Origin: a virus
Virus record (IMG/VR): IMGVR_UViG_3300042885_000037
Span: 1 to 20,156 of that record
Strand: one strand, 5' to 3'
Length of the DNA: 20,156 nucleotides
The notes beneath the pieces are model-generated. The model was given only the letters and a program-made list of their open reading frames with translations. It was not told the origin of the DNA and made no database searches. Every line of letters starts with the position of its first letter. Positions within the stretch are counted from its first letter, which is position 1. Below, piece after piece: positions 2,173-19,440 of the stretch. The position numbers and the translations under genes are program-made.

Positions 2173-3438
2173 TTAAACTTTAGCTTTATATGCGTCAAAA
2201 TCTGTTTTTAATTCTTGGATGGCTTTAACCAAAATTGCAGTTAAATTTGCGTAATTAATTGACTCTACTTGTTCACCTTTTTCTGGGTCTTCTGAATCAA
2301 TCATTGATTTATTCACAAGTCTTGGCTCAGGAAAATCTTCAGCAATAAATCCAACTTGTGAAACGCCACCGTTCTTTAAGTTATAACTTACTGGGTTCAT
2401 CTGCATGACAAGATCAAGACCAACATCAATTGGCTCTACATTTTCTTTGTACCGAAGCGAAGAAACGTTTGCTACAAAAAAACCACTAGCGTCAATAACA
2501 AGGGGAGTTCCTGTCCCCGTACCTATTGATGGAGCTTGTACTGTTGAAGCAAAAAACACAGTTCCATCAACGGTTAATTTTCTAGTTGAATTACTTACGC
2601 CAATTCCCACATTACCAGCGGAATCAATTCGCATTCTTTCTGATGTAGTTACGGTGTTTCCTGAATAAAACTCCATTCCTCCAGAATTTGTTCCAGAAAG
2701 CGCACCTCTTAGAACAATTGCCGCACCACTTCCACCGCTTAAATCATTGCCTCCAACAAGTTGCAGCGAATCGTTTGCGCCTGTTGTGTTTGCCCGAATA
2801 AGTCCGCCACGAACAGTAATAGCGCCAACAACATCTAATTTAGATGTAGGTGCGTCTGTACCAATTCCTAAATTTCCTGCATTATCTAGCCTAGCCCGCT
2901 CCGTACCGCCTGTTCCAATTCTTAATGGTACAGCCGAAACAGAACCAAAAAACGGGCCATTGGCATCGGTTCTAGTTAGCAGCAAATCTTCGCTTATGCC
3001 AACAGTACCAAGAATGCTTACTTTATATGCGGGACTAGTTGTACCGATTCCGATATTGCCGCTTGCGTCTTTATATAGCTGCCCCGAACCAATATTTACA
3101 ACACCTGTGCCACCCGTAAGTGTGCCGCTATACTCTAAATTAATAAATCTACCGTTGATAATTCCGTCTTGGATTTGCGCCAATCTGACAGCATCATTTG
3201 GGCTTGTGCCTGCACCCAATCCAGTAATCTTAAAATTACTCATTGGAATATTTGCTGTAACTGTGCTTTGCCCGTCTTTTGTGATTGCGTTTGTCAAACC
3301 ATTGGCTAAGTCAGCGGTCAACAAGTTAAACGTTGTTGCGCTAATAACAGTATTAGGGACAACAGGTTGTCCTGCTGTGTTAATTAAAAATACTCCATTT
3401 CCGTTGAAACTCACTTGCGTACTCCATGAGTAAGACAT
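2173..3438 (-). CDS. Tail fibre/spike with C-terminal S74 intramolecular chaperone
   Basis: The C-terminal ~100 residues match the peptidase S74 chaperone that trimerises phage fibres and then cuts itself off. The SSLRYKEN stretch holds a Ser and Lys five apart (326 and 331 from this start), as in the catalytic dyad of endosialidase-type fibres, and [10 protein letters not shown] follows. The middle has three repeats of the type GN(I/L/V)GIG, each followed by a K-x-x-V element. The N-terminus ([20 protein letters not shown]) would attach to the virion. The start is uncertain. ATG 3438 is chosen because the frame begins at the expected MSYSW, but it has no clear ribosome-binding site. ATG 3471 also lacks one and lies inside the HNH gene. 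GTG 3414 has GGAG 7 bases upstream. The fibre probably contributes to host recognition. Confidence 0.88.
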
Positions 3439-3441
3439 ATA

Positions 3442-3455
3442 CTGTTTACAAACAG
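3442..3455. repeat. 14-bp palindrome between divergent fibre and HNH genes
   Basis: CTGTTT-AC-AAACAG is an inverted repeat with 6-bp arms and a 2-base centre. It fills half of the 26-bp gap between the fibre start (3438, minus) and the HNH start (3465, plus). It could be an operator, a protein-binding site at the endonuclease insertion point, or chance. Confidence 0.5.
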
Positions 3456-3464
3456 GAAATGTCG

Positions 3465-4025
3465 ATGACATATAAAATTAAAAATTCTACTCAATGTACG
3501 CTTTGCGAAGAAAAAGCAATAGCACGACATTTGTGCAGAAACCATTACAACAAAGCTAGAAAAAATAATAGTTTGAATCTTTACAAGGCTGTAACTATTG
3601 AAGAATCTTTTTACGCACGAATTAAAAAAACTGACTCTTGTTGGTTGTGGACTGGCAGCAAAAACTCTTACGGTTACGGGATAATCATTTGTAACAAAAA
3701 ACAAGTAAGAACGCACCGATTTTCTTATGAACATTTTGTTGGGGAAATACCTCAAGACAAAATTATTATGCACTTGTGTGATAACCCGCCTTGCGTAAAC
3801 CCAGATCATTTGAGAATAGGTACAAAAGCCGAAAACAATGCTGATACATCTGTTAAACGTAGACATAATTACGGACTGAACCATTGGAACGGCAGACTTT
3901 CCGAGCAAGACATTGCTAGCATTCGGGAAAGCACCGAAAAACAAGTTGTTCTTGCTAAAAAGTATGGAGTCGATCAATCTCATATTAGTCGTTTAAAAAA
4001 CCTTGAAAAAGGATATAAAAGGTAA
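3465..4025 (+). CDS. Free-standing HNH homing endonuclease (HNH_3 type) with zinc-finger-like N-terminus and HTH tail
   Basis: The 186-aa protein has three parts. Residues 11-27 form a C-x2-C-x9-C-x2-H cluster (CTLCEEK...HLCRNH), a likely zinc-binding module. Residues about 58-130 are an HNH_3 nuclease with [28 protein letters not shown] and the core [15 protein letters not shown] (H103, N112, H115). Residues about 145-178 ([12 protein letters not shown] then [12 protein letters not shown]) look like a helix-turn-helix. The start at 3465 has AGGA 7 bases upstream; in-frame ATGs at 3426 and 3459 are alternatives. It opposes all surrounding structural genes and is tucked between the ejection-protein gene and the fibre gene, as expected for a selfish endonuclease rather than a virion gene. 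Its AT-rich, lysine-rich coding differs from its neighbours. Confidence 0.9.
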
Positions 4026-4039: not shown

Positions 4040-6280
4040 TTATTGACCAATTTGCCGCAACAAATCAGGGTTAGATAAAAACCCTGCGTAAACTGAAGCA
4101 GGAACAGCCCGTTGACCCAGCGAGATACCGGGTGTTTCATTAGCTAACGCTTTTGCCATATCTAAAGCTTTTTTCTGTTCTGATGCGCTTGTTGATGCGT
4201 TTATTTTGCCTTGCAGCAGCTTTTTACCCATTGGCACAGCAACCGTTGCAACACCGGGGAAACCTACACCCAAAGCGTTCGTAATAACGTCAATGCCAGC
4301 ACCAAGCACTAAAGCACCAGAATTACTGTTGTTGACAGCAGAGCCAGCAGGTTGCAGCGTCATGTATTCAGCAACACGACCCAATCTCTTTAGCTCTGTA
4401 ATTTCCTCTGGGCTAAAGAACAATTCTAGCTTTTTGTCACCAATGTCTTTAATCGCTTTATTGTAGGTAGCAGCACCAAACTTGCCTGTTTCATCACTTC
4501 TGCCGCCCAATGCTTTGTCTTTAAGGTGCGTCAAAATAGCTGACTTTGTGGCTGTTGGATCACCTGCTTTAGCAACCGCAGCAGCGTCAGCAACGTCACC
4601 TGAAAGCACAAACTTGCGTACAAATTGATCTGGCTGCATCCCGTTTATGGTAGATTCAACAGGTTTAGATGATTCTACCCATGCCATGCGCTCACGGTGG
4701 GATGCTCTTGCCTTGTTTAAAGCGTCCAGCAATTCTTTTGGTTGAGCGTCAGCAAGTCTTAATCCCGCAGCAGTTTCAGCGGTTACCAATCCACCGCCTA
4801 AATCAGCTTTTATTGGCTTGATTTCTGTCTTATCAATGGCTTCACGAACCAACTTTAGCGCAGCTTTTACGTTGCCATCAGTCGTTGACCGTGATGCTGT
4901 TGCGATAGTGGTCATCAAGTTATCTAGCGCATTTACATCAAATGGCACAGGAAAAGATTTACCATCTATGGTTGTTTCGCCCTTCGCAATAGCATTGAGC
5001 GTACTTCTAATTTCTGCTGGCAAAAATGCGTTTTTGTTTTGTGCAGACAAAGCTGCATCAATGTTATTTATTAAGCCTGAACGATCAAGGGGGATAGTGC
5101 CACCAGCGGTGTCTTGCGCTGCTTTGTAGAGTGCAGACGTTTCCGCTTGTTTAGCAGCGTCCATCGCAGAGATTTTGCCTACGTTAGCTTCACCTGCTTC
5201 TAGTAAATATGGGCTTCTCACATCCCCTGCACCACGCTGATTTAAAGCGTTAATCAAAGCTTGATTGTTTTGATTTTGCACGTTGCCAAGCGTTTGCAGG
5301 TTAGTGTCCTGCGAATTCATTCCTGCTTTTGCAAGGTTTTGCTCAAGGGTAATCTGTCTTGGGTCAAGCGTTACCATGCCCTTTGTAGGCGTAGCACCCT
5401 CAATCATGCGGAAATCAAGCAATCGACGCATAGCGTCACCGCCTAAATCGCCGCCTGTTTTCATAGCGTTTTGTACATCCGCCCGCAAAGACTTTTGCAC
5501 TTGCTCTGGCAAACGACTGAAATCTAGTCCAGATTGACCTAGTTTTAACGTGATAACTTGATCTACGTCTGCAATGCTAGGTTCTGGTTTAAATCGTTGG
5601 GTTGCTCCTGTTGCACCTGCCTTTAACCCGCCAGCCGCTAATGGTGCAACCATGCCACCAACAAGTGAAGCACCAAGCTGCTGCAATGGATCACCGCCAG
5701 TTTCACGAACAGAACCGCCGCCGTAGCCACTACCCGCAGCAGCTAATGTTTGCAAACTAGGATTGGATGCTAATTGACCCGCTACGTTGCTAGTTACGCC
5801 TGTTGTAGCTTTTTGTACAGCAGACGCAGCGGGAATCATAGTGCCAGCTGAAACCAACGAACGAGCTACATCACCCACAACTTCTTCACTTGGTAAGTAA
5901 TTGGCCAAGCCTGTTGGTCTGTCCATAACGGACGCTGAACGAGGCTTTGGCAAACCAAGCAAGTCAGCTAACTTTTGACCCATTGTTGACAGCGGCATGG
6001 GTTCTGGCCCGCCCACCGCACTAGATATAGCACCAATAGCTTGACGCAATGGTTCTACAGGCATACCAAGAGTATTGGCTGTTCCTTCAAATCCATATCG
6101 TGCTGTTAAGCCTAATTGTCTAGGAATGTCTGCAAAAACAGAACCACTCCTTTCTGGTGTAGGTTCTGGAGGCGTTGACGCATGAAATTTATTGGCTAGT
6201 TGCCACGCTTCGGCTTCGTCTTTAGCGTCAACCTCGTAGACTTCTTTACCAATTTTGACTTCAAATGTTCCGCTGCTCAT
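4040..6280 (-). CDS. Probable internal virion/DNA-ejection protein (746 aa)
   Basis: This large protein is rich in Ala, Gly, Lys and Gln. It begins with a small domain (SSGTFEVKIGKEVYEVDAKD) and has two long Gly/Ala-rich hydrophobic stretches, roughly residues 135-225 and 645-690 (SGALVLGAGIDVITNALGVG). Between them are long helical, charged segments. No lysozyme or transglycosylase motif is visible. Size, composition and position after the other ejection-type genes suggest a protein stored in the capsid and injected with the DNA. This is inference, not a domain match. Its ATG shares one base with the stop of the 520-aa gene (TAATG), implying coupled translation. An alternative is a large structural protein of the tail tip. 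Confidence 0.85.
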   Translation of the reverse strand: MSSGTFEVKIGKEVYEVDAKDEAEAWQLANKFHASTPPEPTPERSGSVFADIPRQLGLTARYGFEGTANTLGMPVEPLRQAIGAISSAVGGPEPMPLSTMGQKLADLLGLPKPRSASVMDRPTGLANYLPSEEVVGDVARSLVSAGTMIPAASAVQKATTGVTSNVAGQLASNPSLQTLAAAGSGYGGGSVRETGGDPLQQLGASLVGGMVAPLAAGGLKAGATGATQRFKPEPSIADVDQVITLKLGQSGLDFSRLPEQVQKSLRADVQNAMKTGGDLGGDAMRRLLDFRMIEGATPTKGMVTLDPRQITLEQNLAKAGMNSQDTNLQTLGNVQNQNNQALINALNQRGAGDVRSPYLLEAGEANVGKISAMDAAKQAETSALYKAAQDTAGGTIPLDRSGLINNIDAALSAQNKNAFLPAEIRSTLNAIAKGETTIDGKSFPVPFDVNALDNLMTTIATASRSTTDGNVKAALKLVREAIDKTEIKPIKADLGGGLVTAETAAGLRLADAQPKELLDALNKARASHRERMAWVESSKPVESTINGMQPDQFVRKFVLSGDVADAAAVAKAGDPTATKSAILTHLKDKALGGRSDETGKFGAATYNKAIKDIGDKKLELFFSPEEITELKRLGRVAEYMTLQPAGSAVNNSNSGALVLGAGIDVITNALGVGFPGVATVAVPMGKKLLQGKINASTSASEQKKALDMAKALANETPGISLGQRAVPASVYAGFLSNPDLLRQIGQ

Positions 6281-7842
6281 TATTGCCTCGGCGTTATTCT
6301 ACGAACCGCACCCTTAGGTGGCTGTGCGCCACCTTGGGCATATTTTTGATTTAACTCAATAATGGTATTTAATGACTTAATGCGGGTTTGATAAGGAATG
6401 TTTCCATTCGCTACGTCAGCAGCCGCTTGACGATACAATTTTACGTCAGCATCGCTTTGTGGGCCTTCCATCCTAGGTACGTTAGATACCAATTGTGCGC
6501 TAATAACCTTTAATTGACCATCGGCAGCGGATTTGTTGGTTGGAATACCAGCCGCATCCGTTGCCATTGTTGCAAGGTTGCTTATTGCGCCAGAAGTTGC
6601 AGAAGGCAATATTTCTTGCGCTCGTTGCGCCAATTCAATCATTGACTGACCTTGTGCAACTTTTTTGTCAACTTCTGCTACTAATGGAGTTCCAGCGGCG
6701 GATAATTCAGCAGCTCTAGATTTAGGAACTAAGATTTTTTGTGCAGAATTATTAGGATCGGGAGCAGTAACAAAATCAAATTCTGCTTTTGCGGCCTCTA
6801 CCGCCCCCGCTTCTGCGCCTCTAAATTTAGCGTTTAGTTCTCTAGCTTGGTCAATTGGCATCGCTGTGGGTTTACCATCAATGAGTACATTTACTGTGCC
6901 GGGTTCTGGTGGTGGCATTGCCTGTCTTGTTCCTGATGGCCCTTGAATAGTTGCGTTAGCTCCAAAAGATTGAGTTGCTTCTTTTTCAATCAATCCTTCA
7001 ACAACTTTTCTATCTGGGCTGTCTATTGGCAGCGTGTCACGCAAAGCCATTAATCTTTGGATTGGCAATTCATTTGCAGGTGGCATAATGCCTTCCATGA
7101 CAATCTTTTCGCCGCCCTTGCCAATTTGAACGTAACGCAATTGTCCGTTAACCATTGCTGTAATAGGCGCACCAGACGGCATATTGACAACAGTTCCGGG
7201 TGGGCGCATAGACATTCTAAAATCTTGCAATGTGCCTTGGAAACCTTGTTTATCTCTAGCGTACTCGTATTCTTTAATAGTAGAAGGTGCTTTTTGCATA
7301 TCTTCTAGCATGAATTTAGCAGCAGGGGCAGCGTAAGGATTGCCACCAGTAAGAATTTGAATAAGTCGTTGCCTTCTTTCGGGTTCACTTAAAGGAATCG
7401 CTGGAATTGCAGGTCTACCGGGTGATCCTGCAACCTCTACATCACCTGAAGCAGCAATGGGTAGGTTAGGATTGTCCTCAAAGTCTGCGCCCGTTGGCGT
7501 AAACGATGTGCCGGGAGTCGGTGCAATAGCAGGTTGTGCGGGCGTACCTTCAAGAGCAGCAATTTGCGCTGCGCCTTCTGTTTGCATACGCTGACCAAGA
7601 GCAGCCCTAGCATCGTCTGATCTATCTCCAGCGGTTACTGCTGCATACATTTGCAGCGCTTTAGCCAATGGTTGTAGCGGAGAAATAGGGGCTTGAATAC
7701 CTTGATAGCTATTAATTTCAAGTGGCTGCAACGCTTGTTGCTGCATTATCTGCGCCATGCGCTCTCGTCTAGCAATAGCTGAAAGCTCTTTGTCATACGG
7801 GGTAGGCGTTCTAAGCCCGCCTTGAGGTTGATTAAATACCAT
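6280..7842 (-). CDS. Probable internal virion/ejection protein (520 aa)
   Basis: The protein has a Gln-rich N-terminus (RRERMAQIMQQQALQP at about residues 26-41), then a Pro/Ala-rich low-complexity region (about 100-155, with repeats such as PAQPAIAPTPG and GRPAIPAIP). A long helical C-terminal region includes the stretch PRMEGPQSDADVKLYRQAAA, which I associate with phage virion proteins of this class. No enzymatic motif is seen. AAAGG lies 6 bases before the ATG at 7842. A capsid-internal or ejected role is inferred from its neighbours and composition. Its N-terminal segment resembles that of the adjacent 77-aa protein, and the DNA shows a matching 34-bp imperfect repeat. Confidence 0.85.
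   Translation of the reverse strand: MVFNQPQGGLRTPTPYDKELSAIARRERMAQIMQQQALQPLEINSYQGIQAPISPLQPLAKALQMYAAVTAGDRSDDARAALGQRMQTEGAAQIAALEGTPAQPAIAPTPGTSFTPTGADFEDNPNLPIAASGDVEVAGSPGRPAIPAIPLSEPERRQRLIQILTGGNPYAAPAAKFMLEDMQKAPSTIKEYEYARDKQGFQGTLQDFRMSMRPPGTVVNMPSGAPITAMVNGQLRYVQIGKGGEKIVMEGIMPPANELPIQRLMALRDTLPIDSPDRKVVEGLIEKEATQSFGANATIQGPSGTRQAMPPPEPGTVNVLIDGKPTAMPIDQARELNAKFRGAEAGAVEAAKAEFDFVTAPDPNNSAQKILVPKSRAAELSAAGTPLVAEVDKKVAQGQSMIELAQRAQEILPSATSGAISNLATMATDAAGIPTNKSAADGQLKVISAQLVSNVPRMEGPQSDADVKLYRQAAADVANGNIPYQTRIKSLNTIIELNQKYAQGGAQPPKGAVRRITPRQ
7735..7768 (-). repeat. Imperfect 34-bp repeat, copy in the 520-aa gene
   Basis: This stretch matches 8026-8059 at 27 of 34 positions by eye. 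It encodes the RMAQ-x-x-QQQ motif near the N-terminus of the 520-aa protein and includes the shared blocks TTGTTGCTGCA and GCCATGCGCT (plus strand). Confidence 0.6.
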
Positions 7843-7851
7843 GATTTACCT

Positions 7852-8085
7852 TTAATCGCCGTACATCATGCCTGTTGATGGAATGTAGCCTTGTGGTGCT
7901 TGTGGTGCAGCACCTTGCAATTGCTTGTTACGCATATACATCTGCATCATTGCAGGGATGTCTTGCATAGGATTTTGCTGTTGCGGAGCTTGCATTTGCT
8001 GCATTTGCATACCTTGTTGTTGCTCTTGTTGCTGCAAAGCCTGAGCCATGCGCTGTTGTGGGCTTAAATTAACGTATCGGTTCAT
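7852..8085 (-). CDS. Glutamine- and methionine-rich small protein (77 aa)
   Basis: The sequence is low-complexity. It begins MNRYVNLSPQQRMAQALQQQ, continues with Gln/Met-rich runs to about residue 52, and ends with a Pro/Gly tail (APQGYIPSTGMMYGD). No family is recognised. AAAGGA lies 5 bases before the ATG, and the first 17 bases overlap the 3' end of the PP-loop enzyme gene, so it is a real, tightly packed gene. Its N-terminal RMAQALQQQ motif resembles RMAQIMQQQ in the 520-aa protein directly downstream. This suggests a partial duplication or a shared binding element. It may be a minor virion component, but nothing shows this directly. Confidence 0.75.
   Translation of the reverse strand: MNRYVNLSPQQRMAQALQQQEQQQGMQMQQMQAPQQQNPMQDIPAMMQMYMRNKQLQGAAPQAPQGYIPSTGMMYGD
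8026..8059 (-). repeat. Imperfect 34-bp repeat, copy in the 77-aa gene
   Basis: This is the partner of 7735-7768, at 27 of 34 identical positions by eye, in the same orientation and about 290 bp away. It encodes the RMAQALQQQ segment. Confidence 0.6.
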
Positions 8086-8770
8086 TGCAGTCCTTTAGTA
8101 ACTGAGCAACAGGTAACACAGCAGTTTTTAATCTATCCATACTTATTTTATATTCTTCGTAGAGTTTTGGGTGCTTTTCTTTTGTGTAAGCAACCCTGTC
8201 TGCGGAGTGATTTAAATAAGCCGTACAGTCGTAACAATCCAAACTTGAATGGTCAATCTTAAAGTGTTCAGGCAAATCGCCTTGCGTTCTTAAAAATGCA
8301 AATACTTGGTCTTTTGTCCAAGTTTCAATCGGTTGTATAAACGTAATTCCATTAACAACAGAACCATGCCTAGCTATGCTTTTATGACTATCATCAAGCC
8401 TTTGACCACGAATCATTTGCGTAATGCCCCGCTGTTTTGCAGATTCTAGCAAGGGTTTTGCTTTGTTTTCGTAGCAGCAATTAAAGTAACTCTGCACCAT
8501 CACAGGTTTTTGACCCGTTAAAAGCATTCCTTCTTTTGTGCTATCTACTGGAACAATGTCGCTTGGTAATCCAAACGCTTCAATTTGCCCTTTTTGGTCT
8601 GTCTTTACTTCTATAAACTCTACCGATTCACTTTTAATCTTGTTTATTAAATCAATTGTTTCAGGGTATGCTTTACCAGTATTTACCCAAAAAACTATTG
8701 GATTTTGGTCTTTATACAAATACCAGCAAGCAAGCGAATCTTTGCCTCCAGAAAACGCTAGTCCAAGCAT
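8069..8770 (-). CDS. PP-loop ATPase-fold enzyme of the PAPS/APS reductase family
   Basis: The 233-aa protein starts with the adenylate-binding PP-loop SGGKDS (residues 7-12) of the PAPS reductase/ATP sulfurylase-like fold. It also has adjacent cysteines C98-C99 followed by YENKAKPL, the segment RGQR (121-124), IQPIETWTKDQV (145-156) and C179-x-x-C182-T. The CC...CxxC pattern, about 80 residues apart, is the one that binds a [4Fe-4S] cluster in assimilatory APS reductases. The ECGLH catalytic end of those reductases is absent; the C-terminus is KDCNEPIR. True sulfate reduction is therefore uncertain, and a role in nucleotide or DNA modification is possible. It sits among ejection-protein genes and its ATG is coupled to the upstream stop (TAATG). 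Confidence 0.88.
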   Translation of the reverse strand: MLGLAFSGGKDSLACWYLYKDQNPIVFWVNTGKAYPETIDLINKIKSESVEFIEVKTDQKGQIEAFGLPSDIVPVDSTKEGMLLTGQKPVMVQSYFNCCYENKAKPLLESAKQRGITQMIRGQRLDDSHKSIARHGSVVNGITFIQPIETWTKDQVFAFLRTQGDLPEHFKIDHSSLDCYDCTAYLNHSADRVAYTKEKHPKLYEEYKISMDRLKTAVLPVAQLLKDCNEPIR

Positions 8771-9915
8771 TAATACATTGCCGCAGCCAGAGCAAGCGAC
8801 CCAATTCCTTGCGTTGTAGCGTTAGCACCTGCTTGCTGAATTCCGTAATTTTGAATAGCAGCTTGGTTTGCAGCTTGTGTAGCGGCAAATGTCGGTGCGG
8901 GAGCTATGTTTGTGCCTTGGTATCCTGCAAATTGCGGAAGCTGAATCTGTGAGCCACCTAATAGACCAATAATCTCGTTCATTGGTTGACCTCTAAGAGT
9001 CAAGTCTTGAGCAAGTTGCTGTTGTTGTGCTTGGTTGCCAAACTGCGCTCTTGACAAGCCTTGTGAGAAGTCTTGACCTAAAGCTGTGTTGTATAGACCT
9101 GCTCGGTTCATTAACTCGCCAAAACCTTGCTGACGAGCGTTCATATCTAGCCCGATACCTTGCAAAGCAGCTTGACTATACAGGTCATTCTTGCTCATCT
9201 CACGGTTACGAAAAGCTGTGTTGTACGCTTGCGTTCCCGGTGCTAAACCTTGATTTGCAAGTGTTTGTGCAAATGATCTATCGCCAGCTTCAATGGTTGG
9301 GCTTAACCGCTGCAAGATTAAGTCTTGAGCAGTTGTGCCAGCATTAATTGGCATAGCAGCTAAATTGCTAGTGTCAATATCGCCTCTTGCTCGACCGTAA
9401 TCAGCAAAACTTTTTTCAATATTTGTAGAGGTAGGCGTAAATGGCGTAGAAAGCATCGTGCGAGCATTACCGATGCCTGTTTCTGATAAACCAGCCATCG
9501 CACGTTGCACACGCATTTGTGCGTCTAATGTAGCTTGCGCTTCAGGAGTAAGGGTTTGCGTAACAGTAGGAATGCCGCCACCAGACATATATGCGTTACG
9601 GTCAGGTGCTGAACCTGCTCTTTTTTTTGCCATTTCGTAAGCACGATTGTCAAAAAATGTTTCGCCGCTATCGTAATCACTTTGATAAAACGATTCAGGG
9701 TCAATTTTTTTGTTGTACTCCGACAAATCAGCGTCATAACGTGCTTGATCAAATGTTGGATCGCTGTACTTAACCGTCTGCGTTCCAAAAGGAGTAAACA
9801 TATTTGGATTGCTAAGAATTGCACTCTCACGGGCAGAAATTCGGTTTTCATTGCCCTGCTCTCTAGCAGCAGCAACATAATCCGGTGCTGGCGGTGGACT
9901 AGCTGACTTACCCAT
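8770..9915 (-). CDS. Probable virion protein (ejection or tail-associated, 381 aa)
   Basis: The protein begins MGKSASPPPAPDYVAAAREQ and is rich in Gln, Ala and Asn. It contains SNPNMFTPFGTQTVKY, a Tyr/Asp-rich segment (about residues 52-95), and a long Gln-rich helical region from about 115 to 310. The C-terminus is Ala-rich and hydrophobic (TTQGIGSLALAAAMY). I associate this layout with internal or tail-associated proteins of short-tailed phages encoded just after the tail nozzle gene. No catalytic motif is seen. AGGGG is placed 7 bases before the ATG, and the start overlaps the acetyltransferase gene by 8 bases. Its exact place in the virion cannot be read from sequence. Confidence 0.85.
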   Translation of the reverse strand: MGKSASPPPAPDYVAAAREQGNENRISARESAILSNPNMFTPFGTQTVKYSDPTFDQARYDADLSEYNKKIDPESFYQSDYDSGETFFDNRAYEMAKKRAGSAPDRNAYMSGGGIPTVTQTLTPEAQATLDAQMRVQRAMAGLSETGIGNARTMLSTPFTPTSTNIEKSFADYGRARGDIDTSNLAAMPINAGTTAQDLILQRLSPTIEAGDRSFAQTLANQGLAPGTQAYNTAFRNREMSKNDLYSQAALQGIGLDMNARQQGFGELMNRAGLYNTALGQDFSQGLSRAQFGNQAQQQQLAQDLTLRGQPMNEIIGLLGGSQIQLPQFAGYQGTNIAPAPTFAATQAANQAAIQNYGIQQAGANATTQGIGSLALAAAMY

Positions 9916-10306
9916 AACGTACCCCTAAGAATCGGCAATCGTTTCGTGCCAATGTCATAAATATAATGTCACCATTTGGTGAACCGTCTTTGATTCGTGC
10001 TTCTTCTGCGAAACCCATATTCTTTACTAATTTTATGCTTTTTTGGTTATCTGTGACCACAGGAACGATGATTTTTTCTACATTTAACACATTGAACGGA
10101 TAGTCAAAAATAGCCTTTAAATACGACTTTGTTAACCGTCCTTCCGCTGCTATATGACAAAAAACCGTTCTCTTATTCCAGTTTTCGTAGATAACACCCG
10201 CAATTGTTTTAGCGTCCTTCTGTAAACCTATTGCGCTAGACTGTTCTGCAAAGTAGCCGCCATCAATCTTTTGAGCAACCCAATTGCCAATCTCTGCGCC
10301 TTGCAC
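9908..10306 (-). CDS. GNAT-family N-acetyltransferase (132 aa)
   Basis: The sequence fits a compact GNAT acetyltransferase, which transfers an acetyl group from acetyl-CoA. The strand AIGLQKDAKTIAGVIYENWN is followed by IVPVVTDNQKSIKLVKNMGF, the usual helix-strand ending (N..S..L....GF) of this fold, and then EEARIKDGSPNGDIIFMTL. The frame is open further upstream to 10429, but those codons overlap the nozzle gene and look like a shadow. The GTG at 10306 shares one base with the nozzle gene's TAG stop (TAGTG) and gives VQGAEIGNWV as the start. No good ribosome-binding site is seen, so coupled initiation is likely. The substrate is unknown. It lies in the middle of the virion genes. Confidence 0.85.
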   Translation of the reverse strand: MQGAEIGNWVAQKIDGGYFAEQSSAIGLQKDAKTIAGVIYENWNKRTVFCHIAAEGRLTKSYLKAIFDYPFNVLNVEKIIVPVVTDNQKSIKLVKNMGFAEEARIKDGSPNGDIIFMTLARNDCRFLGVRYG

Positions 10307-11850
10307 TATATGCCAGCCCAGCCTGTCTGATAAACAATGTCCGTCGATGCCCAAAGTATCGTTATCCCTTGTGATGCAGATTGAAACTGTGTCGATCCGC
10401 AATACCCTAACCCTGTAATGCCTTGCCAATTGTTGTTTATGACGTTATTAGAACCCCATGACGCCACATCCCACAACGCAACACCCCAAAGAGCAAAGCC
10501 TGATGGAGTAAATTCTATTGATGCAGCAGAGTCTTGCACATCAAAATCTACGTTCATACCAATTAAAACAGACGGCGTTCCATTGGTAAAAATACTAGGT
10601 CTAGCTCTAGTGAAGTATTTCTTTACGCCTCTGCTATCAAAATAATTAAACGCTTGTTGTGCAACTGTGTTGATGTTTGCACCATCGTCTGCATAGGTTT
10701 CGTCCCAAGCGTGTCCGACAAACCCGTTGCCGCCAAAGTAGGGTTCGTTGTTATATATTTCCCAACAATTTGCATTCCAATTTGTAAAGTTACACCACGC
10801 TTTTGTGATGTTATTCATTACATATTGTTGTTGTTGACCTAAGCCAATTGGCACATTTACAGTCAAAGCATTGTGCTTTGGGTCAAATATCATTTGCCAA
10901 CCAAAGTTATTGCCGTAAAGTTGTGCTGCTCTAGCAAAAGCACCTTGAATCTTGTCTGATAACGCAACCCTTGGGTCTAATCGTGATGATTGCAAACTAG
11001 CAGCAAGCGGATAAACGCCGTTATAAGTTAAAACAACAATATCGCCGCCATACTTTATTAAGCATCGCTTACCAATAGGCTTGCCTGTACGCCAGACGCC
11101 TATCAAAGCCCATTTGGTAGCGTCTGAAGGGTCTGTGCCTGCATATACAATGACTTCGCCGTTAGACGTAATAAACACTAGGTTATCGTCTACGCCATAA
11201 CCAGCGTCAATTGTCCATGTGCCAACAGCAACTATGTAACCGCCAAGTTGTGCTACCGCACTCATGTCAATGTAGTCTGCTACGCCTTGAATTGACAAAG
11301 TTGGCAAATACCATGCAAGCAACGTTTCTTTTTGCGTAAACCAAACTTGGTTTTTAAACGTTGTGATGTTAGTAAATGTTGTGTCATCAACACCCGTAAT
11401 CGTTGGATTTGTCCATGACGTGCCATCGTAAAGCAATGGATGATCTATGCCATTAACAGCGTATACATAACCCCCAGCAGGGGTTGTAACGTTTACATAT
11501 TCCCATTGAGCGTTTGCTAAACCAGTTTCTACGGGTGCGCCAACTACGCCGCCAAGCGTTACATCGTAGATTGCCGTACCAACACAAGCAAACAATTCGT
11601 TTGTTTCACCAGACGAATAACCTATTAAAGTGTCTACTTGACCAGGCAAACCCGTTGCGTACTTGGTAAAGCCTGGGCGCAATATCACATTATTAACGTT
11701 TGGAAACAAGTTAGTAAGCTGGACAGCGTCCAACAAATCCATGTTTGCAATAGAATCTCGTGCGTTCCAACCACCTACGGGAGAAGGTAAAGACGCAACT
11801 TGTGCTGCTGTTCTCTGAACTAAAGAATTGACACCTCTGCGAGTAGCCAT
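10306..11850 (-). CDS. Tail nozzle / packaged-DNA stabilisation candidate (514 aa)
   Basis: The protein is rich in Trp, Tyr, Asn and Gly with many short beta-like segments, and its start region reads SLPSPVGGWNARDSIANMD. Size, beta-rich composition and place directly after the adaptor candidate match the tail tube/nozzle or gp10-like stabilisation proteins of short-tailed phages. The match is by organisation, not by a catalytic or invariant motif. The start chosen is ATG 11850 (MATRRGVNSL), with AAGGGA about 9 bases upstream; an in-frame ATG at 11868 sits too close to that site. On the opposite strand its first codons contain the promoter of the second HNH gene. The gene ends coupled to the acetyltransferase start. 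Confidence 0.85.
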   Translation of the reverse strand: MATRRGVNSLVQRTAAQVASLPSPVGGWNARDSIANMDLLDAVQLTNLFPNVNNVILRPGFTKYATGLPGQVDTLIGYSSGETNELFACVGTAIYDVTLGGVVGAPVETGLANAQWEYVNVTTPAGGYVYAVNGIDHPLLYDGTSWTNPTITGVDDTTFTNITTFKNQVWFTQKETLLAWYLPTLSIQGVADYIDMSAVAQLGGYIVAVGTWTIDAGYGVDDNLVFITSNGEVIVYAGTDPSDATKWALIGVWRTGKPIGKRCLIKYGGDIVVLTYNGVYPLAASLQSSRLDPRVALSDKIQGAFARAAQLYGNNFGWQMIFDPKHNALTVNVPIGLGQQQQYVMNNITKAWCNFTNWNANCWEIYNNEPYFGGNGFVGHAWDETYADDGANINTVAQQAFNYFDSRGVKKYFTRARPSIFTNGTPSVLIGMNVDFDVQDSAASIEFTPSGFALWGVALWDVASWGSNNVINNNWQGITGLGYCGSTQFQSASQGITILWASTDIVYQTGWAGI

Positions 11851-11887: not shown

Positions 11888-12373
11888 GTGGAACAATGGC
11901 TTGATGTTGTTGGCTTTGAGGGCTTGTACCAAGTGTCTAATTTTGGCAGCGTTAAAAACGCAAAAACTGGTCATGTTAAAAAATTGCATTTGAATAAACG
12001 ACTCAATAGACCGCAAATTTGCCTTTCTAAATTTGACAAAACAACTACTTATTATCCGCATAAATTGGTCATGGAAGCGTTTGTTGGAAAACGTCCTGAA
12101 GGAATGGAGTGTTGTCATGCTGATGGTAATCCTTGGAATAATGCTCTGAGCAACCTTAGATGGGACACTAGAAACAATAATAGCCAAGACAAATTTAAAC
12201 ACGGAACGCAAAAGATGGGTGAAAAACATCCAATGTCGAAATTGACGGTTGAAAAAGTTATTGCAATACGACAAGATGATCGTGTTCATAGAATTATTGC
12301 AATTGATTATGGCGTTAGCCAATCCGTTATTTCTGAAATTAAATCAAAAAAATCTTGGGCACACGTTAGTTAG
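11888..12373 (+). CDS. Free-standing HNH homing endonuclease with NUMOD4 and HTH modules
   Basis: Residues 4-45 form a NUMOD4 DNA-binding module (WLDVVGFEGLYQVSNFGSVK). Residues about 56-101 form an HNH_3 nuclease with PHKLVMEAFVG and CCHADGNPWNNALSNLRW (H77 and N84/N85 in the core). Residues about 117-153 are a helix-turn-helix-like tail (SKLTVEKVIAIRQD then YGVSQSVISEIK). The start is GTG at 11888, supported by AGGGGA 5 bases upstream. The gene runs against the structural operon, between the adaptor and nozzle genes, and its stop overlaps the adaptor's by 8 bases. It has a promoter of its own. The C-terminal module resembles that of the other HNH gene (3465-4025), although the N-terminal modules differ. 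Confidence 0.92.
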   Translation: MEQWLDVVGFEGLYQVSNFGSVKNAKTGHVKKLHLNKRLNRPQICLSKFDKTTTYYPHKLVMEAFVGKRPEGMECCHADGNPWNNALSNLRWDTRNNNSQDKFKHGTQKMGEKHPMSKLTVEKVIAIRQDDRVHRIIAIDYGVSQSVISEIKSKKSWAHVS

Positions 12374-17122: not shown

Positions 17123-17314
17123 TTAGTTAGCATTTATTTCGCTTAATTCTATATCTTGTAATTGCAAGTCAGTCGGACGGGGAAGTGTTGGATGTTCCCA
17201 TAAGGAAATGTAATCTCCAAAACCATTTAAATCATTTTGCAAACGTATGGCTGTAAGAAAATCTTTGGGTGTCAATTCTGGATAAATGGATATAATTTTT
17301 TCATATAAAGACAT
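17123..17314 (-). CDS. Small protein after tail fibre, possibly XkdW-like (63 aa)
   Basis: The sequence starts MSLYEKIISIYPELTPKDFL and contains TAIRLQNDLNGFGDYISLWE followed by HPTLPRPTDLQLQ. The YPELTP...LQND..G.GDYI..W pattern resembles small XkdW-type phage proteins encoded beside fibre genes, but I am unsure of this. Its ATG shares one base with the stop of the 708-aa fibre gene (TAATG), so production is probably tied to the fibre. A fibre-assembly or fibre-tip role would fit; no function is shown directly. Confidence 0.8.
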   Translation of the reverse strand: MSLYEKIISIYPELTPKDFLTAIRLQNDLNGFGDYISLWEHPTLPRPTDLQLQDIELSEINAN

Positions 17315-19440
17315 TATGCAGACCTCACAAGTGCGCCAGAAAATTTAGTAGTTGACCCGCCTGCTCCAGCAATAAAAGTAGCAGTACCTGAGACAAGTAT
17401 GGAAAACCCATACAATTCGACATAATCTGTAGATCCATTTAAATACAATACTGTGGATATTGAAGAAAGAACTTCACCAACAGTACTATTAATAAAGCTT
17501 CCAGAAAGATAAACAGAACCATTTTTATAAATGCTGCAACCGGAGTATTGACCAGTTCCAGAAACATATATCGAGCCATTAATTTGATAGTAGCCAGCTA
17601 CGGTTGGTGTAAATCTGTTTGTTGTTGTATTAAAACAAGAATTTGTATCAAAATCTTCTGCGTTAAATGCTACTTTGGTGTTAGTTGAGCTAGCTACTCC
17701 TGTTTGGCTAGCTGTTAAATAAGCACTAAACGCTGGCCCGCCGCTAGACATTCCTGTACCGCCATTAGCGATAGGCAAAATGCCCGTGACTTGCGTTGTT
17801 AGAGATACGCCACTTAGCGTACCGCCTAAAGCCAGGTTTCCAGACGTTGTGACTGTGCCTGTCAGCGTGATTCCGTTGACTGTGCCTGTGCCGCCTACGC
17901 TTGTTACCGTACCGCCGCTAGATGGTGCAGTATTCGTAATGGTAAAGTTTGGGTACGTTCCGCTAGTCGATATACCAGTACCCGCAGTCAACGCTACCGT
18001 TTGGTCAGGTGCTGTGTTTGCGACAGTTAAAACACCAGTAGATGATGCGGTGACAGAAATAGCTGTTCCCGCTGTTAATGCTGTGTTTTTCCAGTAACCG
18101 TCTAAACCGTCATAAGTAATGATTTGACCGTTAGTAGGAGTAACAATTTGTGCATTGCTGTCAGTTCCACCAAGCGTCGAACCTGCGCTAATACGAATCA
18201 AAATTGTGCCGCCGCCAACTGAGCCACCATTGATGACAGCAGCCATTTGCGCCTTTACATTTGGTGCTACAGGTTTGGTTTTGGTTAATCCACCAGTAAC
18301 TGCTGGGTTATACCAAAGAATATCGCCATCAGCGTACCCTGAAGTGTTTACATTTCGCAATGTTCCAAAGGATTGGACTAGCCCAAATCCGTTGTTAGCA
18401 ATGTTTTCAGCGGCAACACCCATGATGTAATTGCCATCGGTGATGCCTGTCGCTGGTGCGCCTAGGGGTACTCCACTTGCACCGACTGCTCCCGTAAACA
18501 TGACAACTTGACCCTTTGTGATAGTCGCTGTTGCTTTTGTGTAAAAAAACTGATCTTCGCCAATATGTTGAATGACGTTGCCGCCAATCATGCCTAAACC
18601 TAACGTATCGTTACCGTTCCATCCTAATTGACCGACTCCAAGCGTTGTAGCGTAAGTTGTATCAAAGTCTATGTAATCAATGTTTGTAATGGTAGTTGCG
18701 CCATTAATTGCACCTGTGTCGCTTACCGTTACAACGGAGTTTTGAATTAATTTGCCAGTAGTCGTATCAAAACGAGCAATTGCATTGTCCGTAGCGGAGG
18801 CTGGGCCAACCACCCCACCTGTTGAAATGGAATTAAATGTATTCCAATCGGTGCTTGTTAAATAACCGCTTGTAGTGCTATTAGCGGCTGGCATTGCAAT
18901 AGTTGGGGTTGTGCCGCCTGTGCTTGTAACGGGGCTAGTTGCGCTCACAGAAGTCACATAAGTGCCAGCGGGTTGCGCCCCAACGTCAGCAGCGGTTAAT
19001 ACCACCGTACCTGTCTGACCGTTTACGCTGGTCACTTGGTCTGTGTTATCGACCTTTTGCCAAGCTGTGCCGTTATAGACCGCCCAATCGCCTACCTTCC
19101 AATCCGTTACACCGTCAAGGTTTGTAGACCCTGCTACCGATACAACATAGTAGTAACCCTTCACACCAACGCCAGACGCAAGGGTAGGGGTGTTAGTTGA
19201 CGCATTCCAAGTACCTTGATAGCTCAAAGCACCTAAAACCGCCGCAGGAAGTTCAGAAACAGGTACTTTACCGCCAGCGTCAAGGGAAGCTACACCGTTA
19301 GCAACGCCTACGTCTTTCTCTGCTGCTGTACCTAGACCGATAATGGTGTGGTCAGCGTTCCAATTACTAGGACGTACTAAGCTAGTGTCCCCAGAATCTG
19401 CGACAGCACTTACAAATGGGTGTTTGACTGTTACGCTCAT
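17314..19440 (-). CDS. Tail fibre / receptor-binding protein with C-terminal C1q-like domain (708 aa)
   Basis: The N-terminus (SVTVKHPFVSAVADSGD...RPSNWNADHT) and the following VPVSELPAAVLGALSYQGTW region are typical of phage appendage proteins. Residues about 305-425 form a beta-rich domain (ATITKGQVVMFTGAVGASG onward). Residues about 430-565 are Thr/Gly/Ser-rich repeats (SVGGTGTVNGITLTGTVTTS) consistent with a fibrous shaft. The last ~140 residues (from about 567: GPAFSAYLTASQT, TKVAFNAEDFDTNSC, FTPTVAGYYQINGSIYV) resemble a C1q/TNF-like trimeric head, a plausible receptor-binding tip. The ATG overlaps the upstream stop as ATGA. It is encoded far from the S74 fibre, between portal and capsid genes. 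Confidence 0.87.
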   Translation of the reverse strand: MSVTVKHPFVSAVADSGDTSLVRPSNWNADHTIIGLGTAAEKDVGVANGVASLDAGGKVPVSELPAAVLGALSYQGTWNASTNTPTLASGVGVKGYYYVVSVAGSTNLDGVTDWKVGDWAVYNGTAWQKVDNTDQVTSVNGQTGTVVLTAADVGAQPAGTYVTSVSATSPVTSTGGTTPTIAMPAANSTTSGYLTSTDWNTFNSISTGGVVGPASATDNAIARFDTTTGKLIQNSVVTVSDTGAINGATTITNIDYIDFDTTYATTLGVGQLGWNGNDTLGLGMIGGNVIQHIGEDQFFYTKATATITKGQVVMFTGAVGASGVPLGAPATGITDGNYIMGVAAENIANNGFGLVQSFGTLRNVNTSGYADGDILWYNPAVTGGLTKTKPVAPNVKAQMAAVINGGSVGGGTILIRISAGSTLGGTDSNAQIVTPTNGQIITYDGLDGYWKNTALTAGTAISVTASSTGVLTVANTAPDQTVALTAGTGISTSGTYPNFTITNTAPSSGGTVTSVGGTGTVNGITLTGTVTTSGNLALGGTLSGVSLTTQVTGILPIANGGTGMSSGGPAFSAYLTASQTGVASSTNTKVAFNAEDFDTNSCFNTTTNRFTPTVAGYYQINGSIYVSGTGQYSGCSIYKNGSVYLSGSFINSTVGEVLSSISTVLYLNGSTDYVELYGFSILVSGTATFIAGAGGSTTKFSGALVRSA

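Follow-up and report, generated by a model that had tools for sequence, protein, structure and literature searches.

What reaction would be catalyzed by a phage protein that carries the cysteine motif of [4Fe-4S] APS reductases and lacks the C-terminal end supplying their catalytic cysteine? The question is raised by an open reading frame of 233 amino acids with an ATG start, encoded on the minus strand of a viral DNA stretch of 20,156 nucleotides (IMG/VR virus record IMGVR_UViG_3300042885_000037; hereafter the window). An earlier note on this DNA had pointed out the motif and suggested a sulfur-metabolism gene, a thiolation or phosphorothioation-type enzyme, or something new delivered with the particle. 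Its observation was right and is stronger than it was stated; its suggestions about function fared less well. Judging from sequence comparisons, we lean slightly toward a phage-specific PF01507 subfamily of Fe-S-carrying, ATP-using PP-loop enzymes that would be made late and would not be sulfonucleotide reductases. The features on which the analysis draws are collected in Table 1.

Table 1. Features of the PAPS-reductase-like gene and its neighbors in the window.
Feature	Position	Strand	Basis
PP-loop / PAPS-reductase-like protein with APS-reductase-type cysteine quartet	8069..8770	-	PF01507, phrog_424, AlphaFold, 2goy
FSGGKDS PP-loop of the ATP-pyrophosphatase type, residues 6-12 (SGGKDS = 7-12)	8735..8755	-	Relatives and CysD/DndC/SspD
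C98-C99, first half of putative [4Fe-4S] site	8474..8479	-	162/162; aligned to CC of the hosts' APS reductases
GQRLDDSHKS motif, residues 122-131, with acidic D127	8378..8407	-	D/E at 127 in 162/162
C179-x-x-C182 (CYDC, then T183), second half of putative [4Fe-4S] site	8225..8236	-	162/162
C228, lineage-specific cysteine	8087..8089	-	39/162 relatives
Small Gln-rich protein, start inside 3' end of PAPS-reductase-like gene	7852..8085	-	ORF list, sequence; homolog in 48/198 loci
Downstream protein, putative ejection cassette	6280..7842	-	phrog_33352 1.3e-24; homolog in 76/198 loci
Virion structural/ejection-type protein, upstream	8770..9915	-	phrog_6121 9.3e-39; TAATG stop/start overlap
GNAT acetyltransferase, conserved neighbor	9908..10429	-	phrog_4470 1.4e-31; homolog in 110/198 loci, also in Bcep22-like phages

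Motifs and predicted structure

The window protein matches PF01507 (PAPS_reduct) at 4.7e-14, with 53.2 bits against a Pfam gathering cut-off of 22.5, and phrog_424, 'phosphoadenosine phosphosulfate reductase', at 6.7e-26. The elements reported in the earlier note are all present: the SGGKDS loop, the paired cysteines at 98–99, the KPL (within YENKAKPL, which directly follows the pair) and CxxCT at 179–183. An ECGLH-type C-terminal end is missing, and a lone cysteine, C228, lies near the C-terminus, both as described.

The AlphaFold2 model (alignment A5) has a pLDDT of 95.7 and a pTM of 0.90. The structural comparison that had been proposed as a check bears out the resemblance: the best solved Foldseek match of the model is the [4Fe-4S] APS reductase 2goy (E 1.4e-6, TM-score about 0.5). 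Below 2goy, the PDB matches comprise PAPS reductases and, further down, the sulfur transferases TtuA and LarE, whose PP-loop fold resembles the window protein at the level of the fold only and whose cysteine arrangement differs. The best viral structural match is 'CysH' of an uncultured phage, with a TM-score of 0.86. Sequence, model and Foldseek matches agree on an SGGxDS loop in a HUP fold, which places the protein in the N-type ATP pyrophosphatase (PP-loop) superfamily. Since solved APS reductases reach a TM-score of only about 0.5 with the model, the active site described below is inferred from the motifs, and the geometry of the cysteines in the putative cluster site is presumed from homology.

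Conservation among viral and bacterial relatives

A tblastn search against phages returned 10 records, comprising eight records of Burkholderia Bcep22-like phages (whose proteins are 37–39% identical to the window protein), one spring-water phage and one Aeromonas phage. Relatives are encoded in at least 293 viral-contig stretches, and further scans gave 80 and 20 loci; viral contigs scanned with an alphaproteobacterial relative gave no match. Bacterial genomes carry copies too, several of which lie inside recognizable Bcep22-like prophages. Some of these scans used peptide patterns containing CC or CxxC, whereas other scans and the whole-protein tblastn did not.

All 162 distinct full-length relatives, a set that counts the window protein itself and includes many close kin rather than independent events, retain C98, C99, C179 and C182 as well as an acidic residue (Asp or Glu) at position 127. 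The four cysteines and the SGG-DS residues are likewise invariant among 56 sequences of less than 85% identity, although the invariance of the loop arises partly by construction, since both sets had been selected by a motif filter for loops resembling SGG[KR]D[ST]. Five further relatives bear NGGKDS, SGGADS or SGGIDS at the loop and keep CC and CxxC. In one subclade (L217–L220) the lysine of the PP-loop is replaced by alanine or isoleucine (SGGADS, SGGIDS), with CC and CxxC retained.

The missing C-terminal end is equally uniform: a CG[LIM][HR] motif occurs in none of the 162 relatives. Truncation or decay into a pseudogene can be dismissed, because full-length relatives have the same short C-terminus and the dN/dS of the window gene against its nearest relatives is 0.08–0.13. 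C228 cannot stand in for the catalytic cysteine of the reductases, as it is found in only 39 of the 162 proteins. With PF01507 matched above its cut-off, the cysteines invariant and dN/dS low, the motif set of the window gene is, on these comparisons, not a product of chance.

Two variant architectures were observed among bacterial sequences. A group drawn mostly from Firmicutes genomes (L103–L117) consists of longer PF01507 proteins of about 400–450 amino acids that join SGGKDS with CC and CxxC. On a Comamonas thiooxydans plasmid (L119, 7440–8699), a relative carries an additional fused N-terminal part, about 185 amino acids long and annotated as methyltransferase type 11. That annotation was rejected, because Pfam detects no methyltransferase in this part and reports only PAPS_reduct, below the cut-off; phrog_424 spans it.

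Comparison with reductases, CysD, DndC and SspD

For comparison we assembled APS reductases (from genomes carrying prophage relatives and from other sources), PAPS reductases, CysD, DndC and SspD. The residue table comprises 12 usable APS reductases, with one row (L126) left out because its reading frame was wrong, and 6 PAPS reductases; CysD residues were taken from one of the six CysD rows (L260) and from CysD sequences read directly. Profile alignment by hhalign relates the phage family to APS reductases with a probability of 98.1 (E 1.3e-13) and sets CC on CC and CxxC on CxxC. In this sense the motifs are spaced as in APS reductases, as the earlier note had put it, but the distance from CC to CxxC differs by a few residues. 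Conservation, profile alignment and the confident APS-reductase-like model thus agree on an APS-reductase-type quartet that lacks the catalytic end. The phage proteins share with [4Fe-4S] APS reductases of the CysH type (2goy, 7lhr) the fold, the CC and CxxC cluster cysteines and the GQR motif. They differ from the cluster-free PAPS reductases, also called CysH, in having the quartet and no ECGLH tail.

Other features diverge from those of the reductases. A CG[LIM][HR] tail is present in 17 of the 18 reductases (11 of the 12 APS and all 6 PAPS reductases). Reductase loops read, for example, SFSGAED or SSFGAQ, whereas the phage loop is SGGKDS. Within the reductase motif G-x-R-R-x-Q, glutamine occupies the last position in 17 of 18 enzymes and histidine in one, and the phage family has Asp or Glu there. 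The lysine of the APS-reductase RK motif, four residues past CC, occurs in 12 of 12 usable APS reductases and is not conserved in the phage proteins (K103 position; Lys in 5 of 162). CysD, DndC and SspD, by comparison, have SGGKDS or SGGRDS loops and a glutamate at the position of residue 127; in CysD, a subunit of ATP sulfurylase, the motif is GxRRDE. CysD has no CC/CxxC quartet at these positions, is longer and works with a partner, CysN. From the residue table, then, the phage family combines what appears to be the cluster site of APS reductases with the nucleotide site of those relatives that use ATP.

These differences bear on the possibility that the protein is a genuine reductase of the assimilatory APS or PAPS type, an auxiliary metabolic gene supplying cysteine to the host, with its catalytic cysteine provided by another residue or another protein. 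The fold and the quartet are common to both readings, and the gene has been published as a PAPS reductase, and as a moron, in phages JC1 (PMC9144972) and CSP3 (PMC10269572). We nevertheless regard a reductase as improbable. Apart from the uniformly absent tail, no catalytic cysteine is conserved in the family, and the loop and the acid at 127 are of the ATP-using type. The window protein falls far below the cut-off of every NCBIfam reductase model (37.9 bits against 235.3 for TIGR02055). Three Burkholderia or Caballeronia genomes with a prophage relative own a complete APS reductase that scores above the cut-off. A tree inferred by maximum likelihood unites the phage proteins in one clade on a long branch (support 100/100), outside the clade of APS and PAPS reductases (100/97). 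A role in sulfur metabolism in the sense of sulfate reduction is accordingly disfavored.

The same tree separates the phage clade from the clade of DndC and SspD (98/89), enzymes with which it shares the SGGKDS loop, a GxRxxE/D motif and CxxC. A DndC/SspD-like sulfurtransferase would place phosphorothioates in the phage DNA or, as a decoy subunit, block a host phosphorothioation system. DndC is itself a PP-loop Fe-S protein (PMC10853773), and PADLOC returns weak SspD and DndC matches for the window protein. Such a role seems still harder to credit than that of a reductase. DndC and SspD have a single cysteine (RWCT) at the first site where the phage family has CC, and DndC is much larger than the window protein. 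The profile match to DndC (probability 96.4, E 1.3e-9) is weaker than that to APS reductases, and the window protein scores 11.5 bits against a cut-off of 290.4 for TIGR03183 (DndC/SspD). No adjoining DndD-, DndE-, SspB- or SspC-like gene or desulfurase gene was recognized in the window fragment or in the neighborhoods of annotated relatives, a search that leaves room for distant Dnd or Ssp partners. The earlier proposal of phosphorothioation in the Dnd/Ssp sense has neither recognized partners in these neighborhoods nor the right cysteine pattern.

Genomic setting and proposed function

The gene lies among ejection genes, as had been noted: PHROG families and synteny identify its neighbors as virion or ejection-type. 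BcepIL02, CSP3 and a Chromobacterium phage-plasmid share a gene order that runs from an acetyltransferase through a virion protein and the relative to ejection-type genes and a giant polyvalent protein. The window matches this arrangement through the PAPS-reductase-like gene and slightly beyond it, with the phrog_4470 acetyltransferase and phrog_6121 virion protein upstream and uncharacterized proteins thereafter; the downstream genes diverge from those of Lessievirus, and no giant DarB gene was seen in the window. The Lessievirus 'PAPS reductases' (BcepIL02 gp67, JC1 gp65, CSP3, DC1, BcepMigl; 37–39% identity over 93%) have the same four cysteines, loop and place after the acetyltransferase and virion protein, and differ in a short N-terminal extension that the window protein lacks. 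The window gene is thus one already known and annotated in Bcep22-like phages, their 'PAPS reductase', and does not count as a new gene; what survives of the suggestion that it is something new is that the annotated function looks wrong.

Elsewhere in the window, two homing-type endonuclease genes lie on the plus strand, opposite the genes around them. One, at 3426–4025, encodes a free-standing HNH endonuclease (HNH_3 4.6e-12, zf-His_Me_endon 2.5e-7) on the strand opposite the virion genes; the second, at 11888–12373 (NUMOD4 and HNH_3), sits between two tail or virion genes. A tail-fiber-like protein encoded on the minus strand at 17314–19440 ends in a C1q domain match (4.8e-5).

The TAA of the upstream virion gene overlaps the ATG of the PAPS-reductase-like gene (TAATG), an arrangement found in 85 of the 91 loci with a detectable homolog of the virion protein. 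Co-translation with this virion/ejection protein would point to action in the cell late in infection, without delivery. In the proteomic study of JC1 virions, gp64, gp67, gp68 and gp69 were found and neither gp65, the relative of the window protein, nor gp63, the acetyltransferase, was listed (PMC9144972), which is negative evidence from mass spectrometry and concerns a relative of only about 37% identity. The proposal in the earlier note that the protein is delivered with the particle thus finds no support. The least probable alternative is a virion component, structural or delivered, in which the enzyme fold serves as a scaffold: it would fit the position between virion and ejection genes, which overlap tightly in several lineages of phages, but the invariant part of the protein is its active-site and cysteine residues, and gp65 is not listed in a virion proteome that includes its neighbors.

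Most simply, the protein can be read as an enzyme that is made late, stays out of the virion and is translated together with an ejection protein. As the motifs suggest, such a PP-loop enzyme, carrying a [4Fe-4S] cluster, would likely use ATP to activate an acceptor. The putative cluster would be held by C98, C99, C179 and C182, and ATP would be bound by the SGGKDS loop. Conversion of ATP to AMP and pyrophosphate would activate the acceptor, to which sulfur or another nucleophile would probably then be transferred. A cluster ligated by four cysteines, as in APS reductase, would leave no iron free for the kind of sulfur chemistry that has been proposed for thiolases with three cysteines. Sulfur transfer is uncertain for this reason, and none of the neighbors examined was recognized as a dedicated sulfur donor. 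It is conceivable, though unlikely, that the family, with its putative four-cysteine [4Fe-4S] and ATP-pyrophosphatase sites, acts with the neighboring acetyltransferase to modify a virion ejection protein or a nucleic acid late in infection, for example by thiolation.

If the family is such an ATP-using enzyme, its annotation as a PAPS reductase is probably a wrong label. Viral 'cysH/PAPS reductase' genes have been counted as auxiliary genes of sulfur metabolism in published viromes and phage genomes; because the enzyme encoded here is apparently another one, claims of sulfate reduction drawn from this family would be wrong. The family is common in environmental viral contigs and strictly keeps its catalytic residues. 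That it is consistently paired with an acetyltransferase, in a position between ejection genes, suggests a function common to the two late in infection, one that can be tested.
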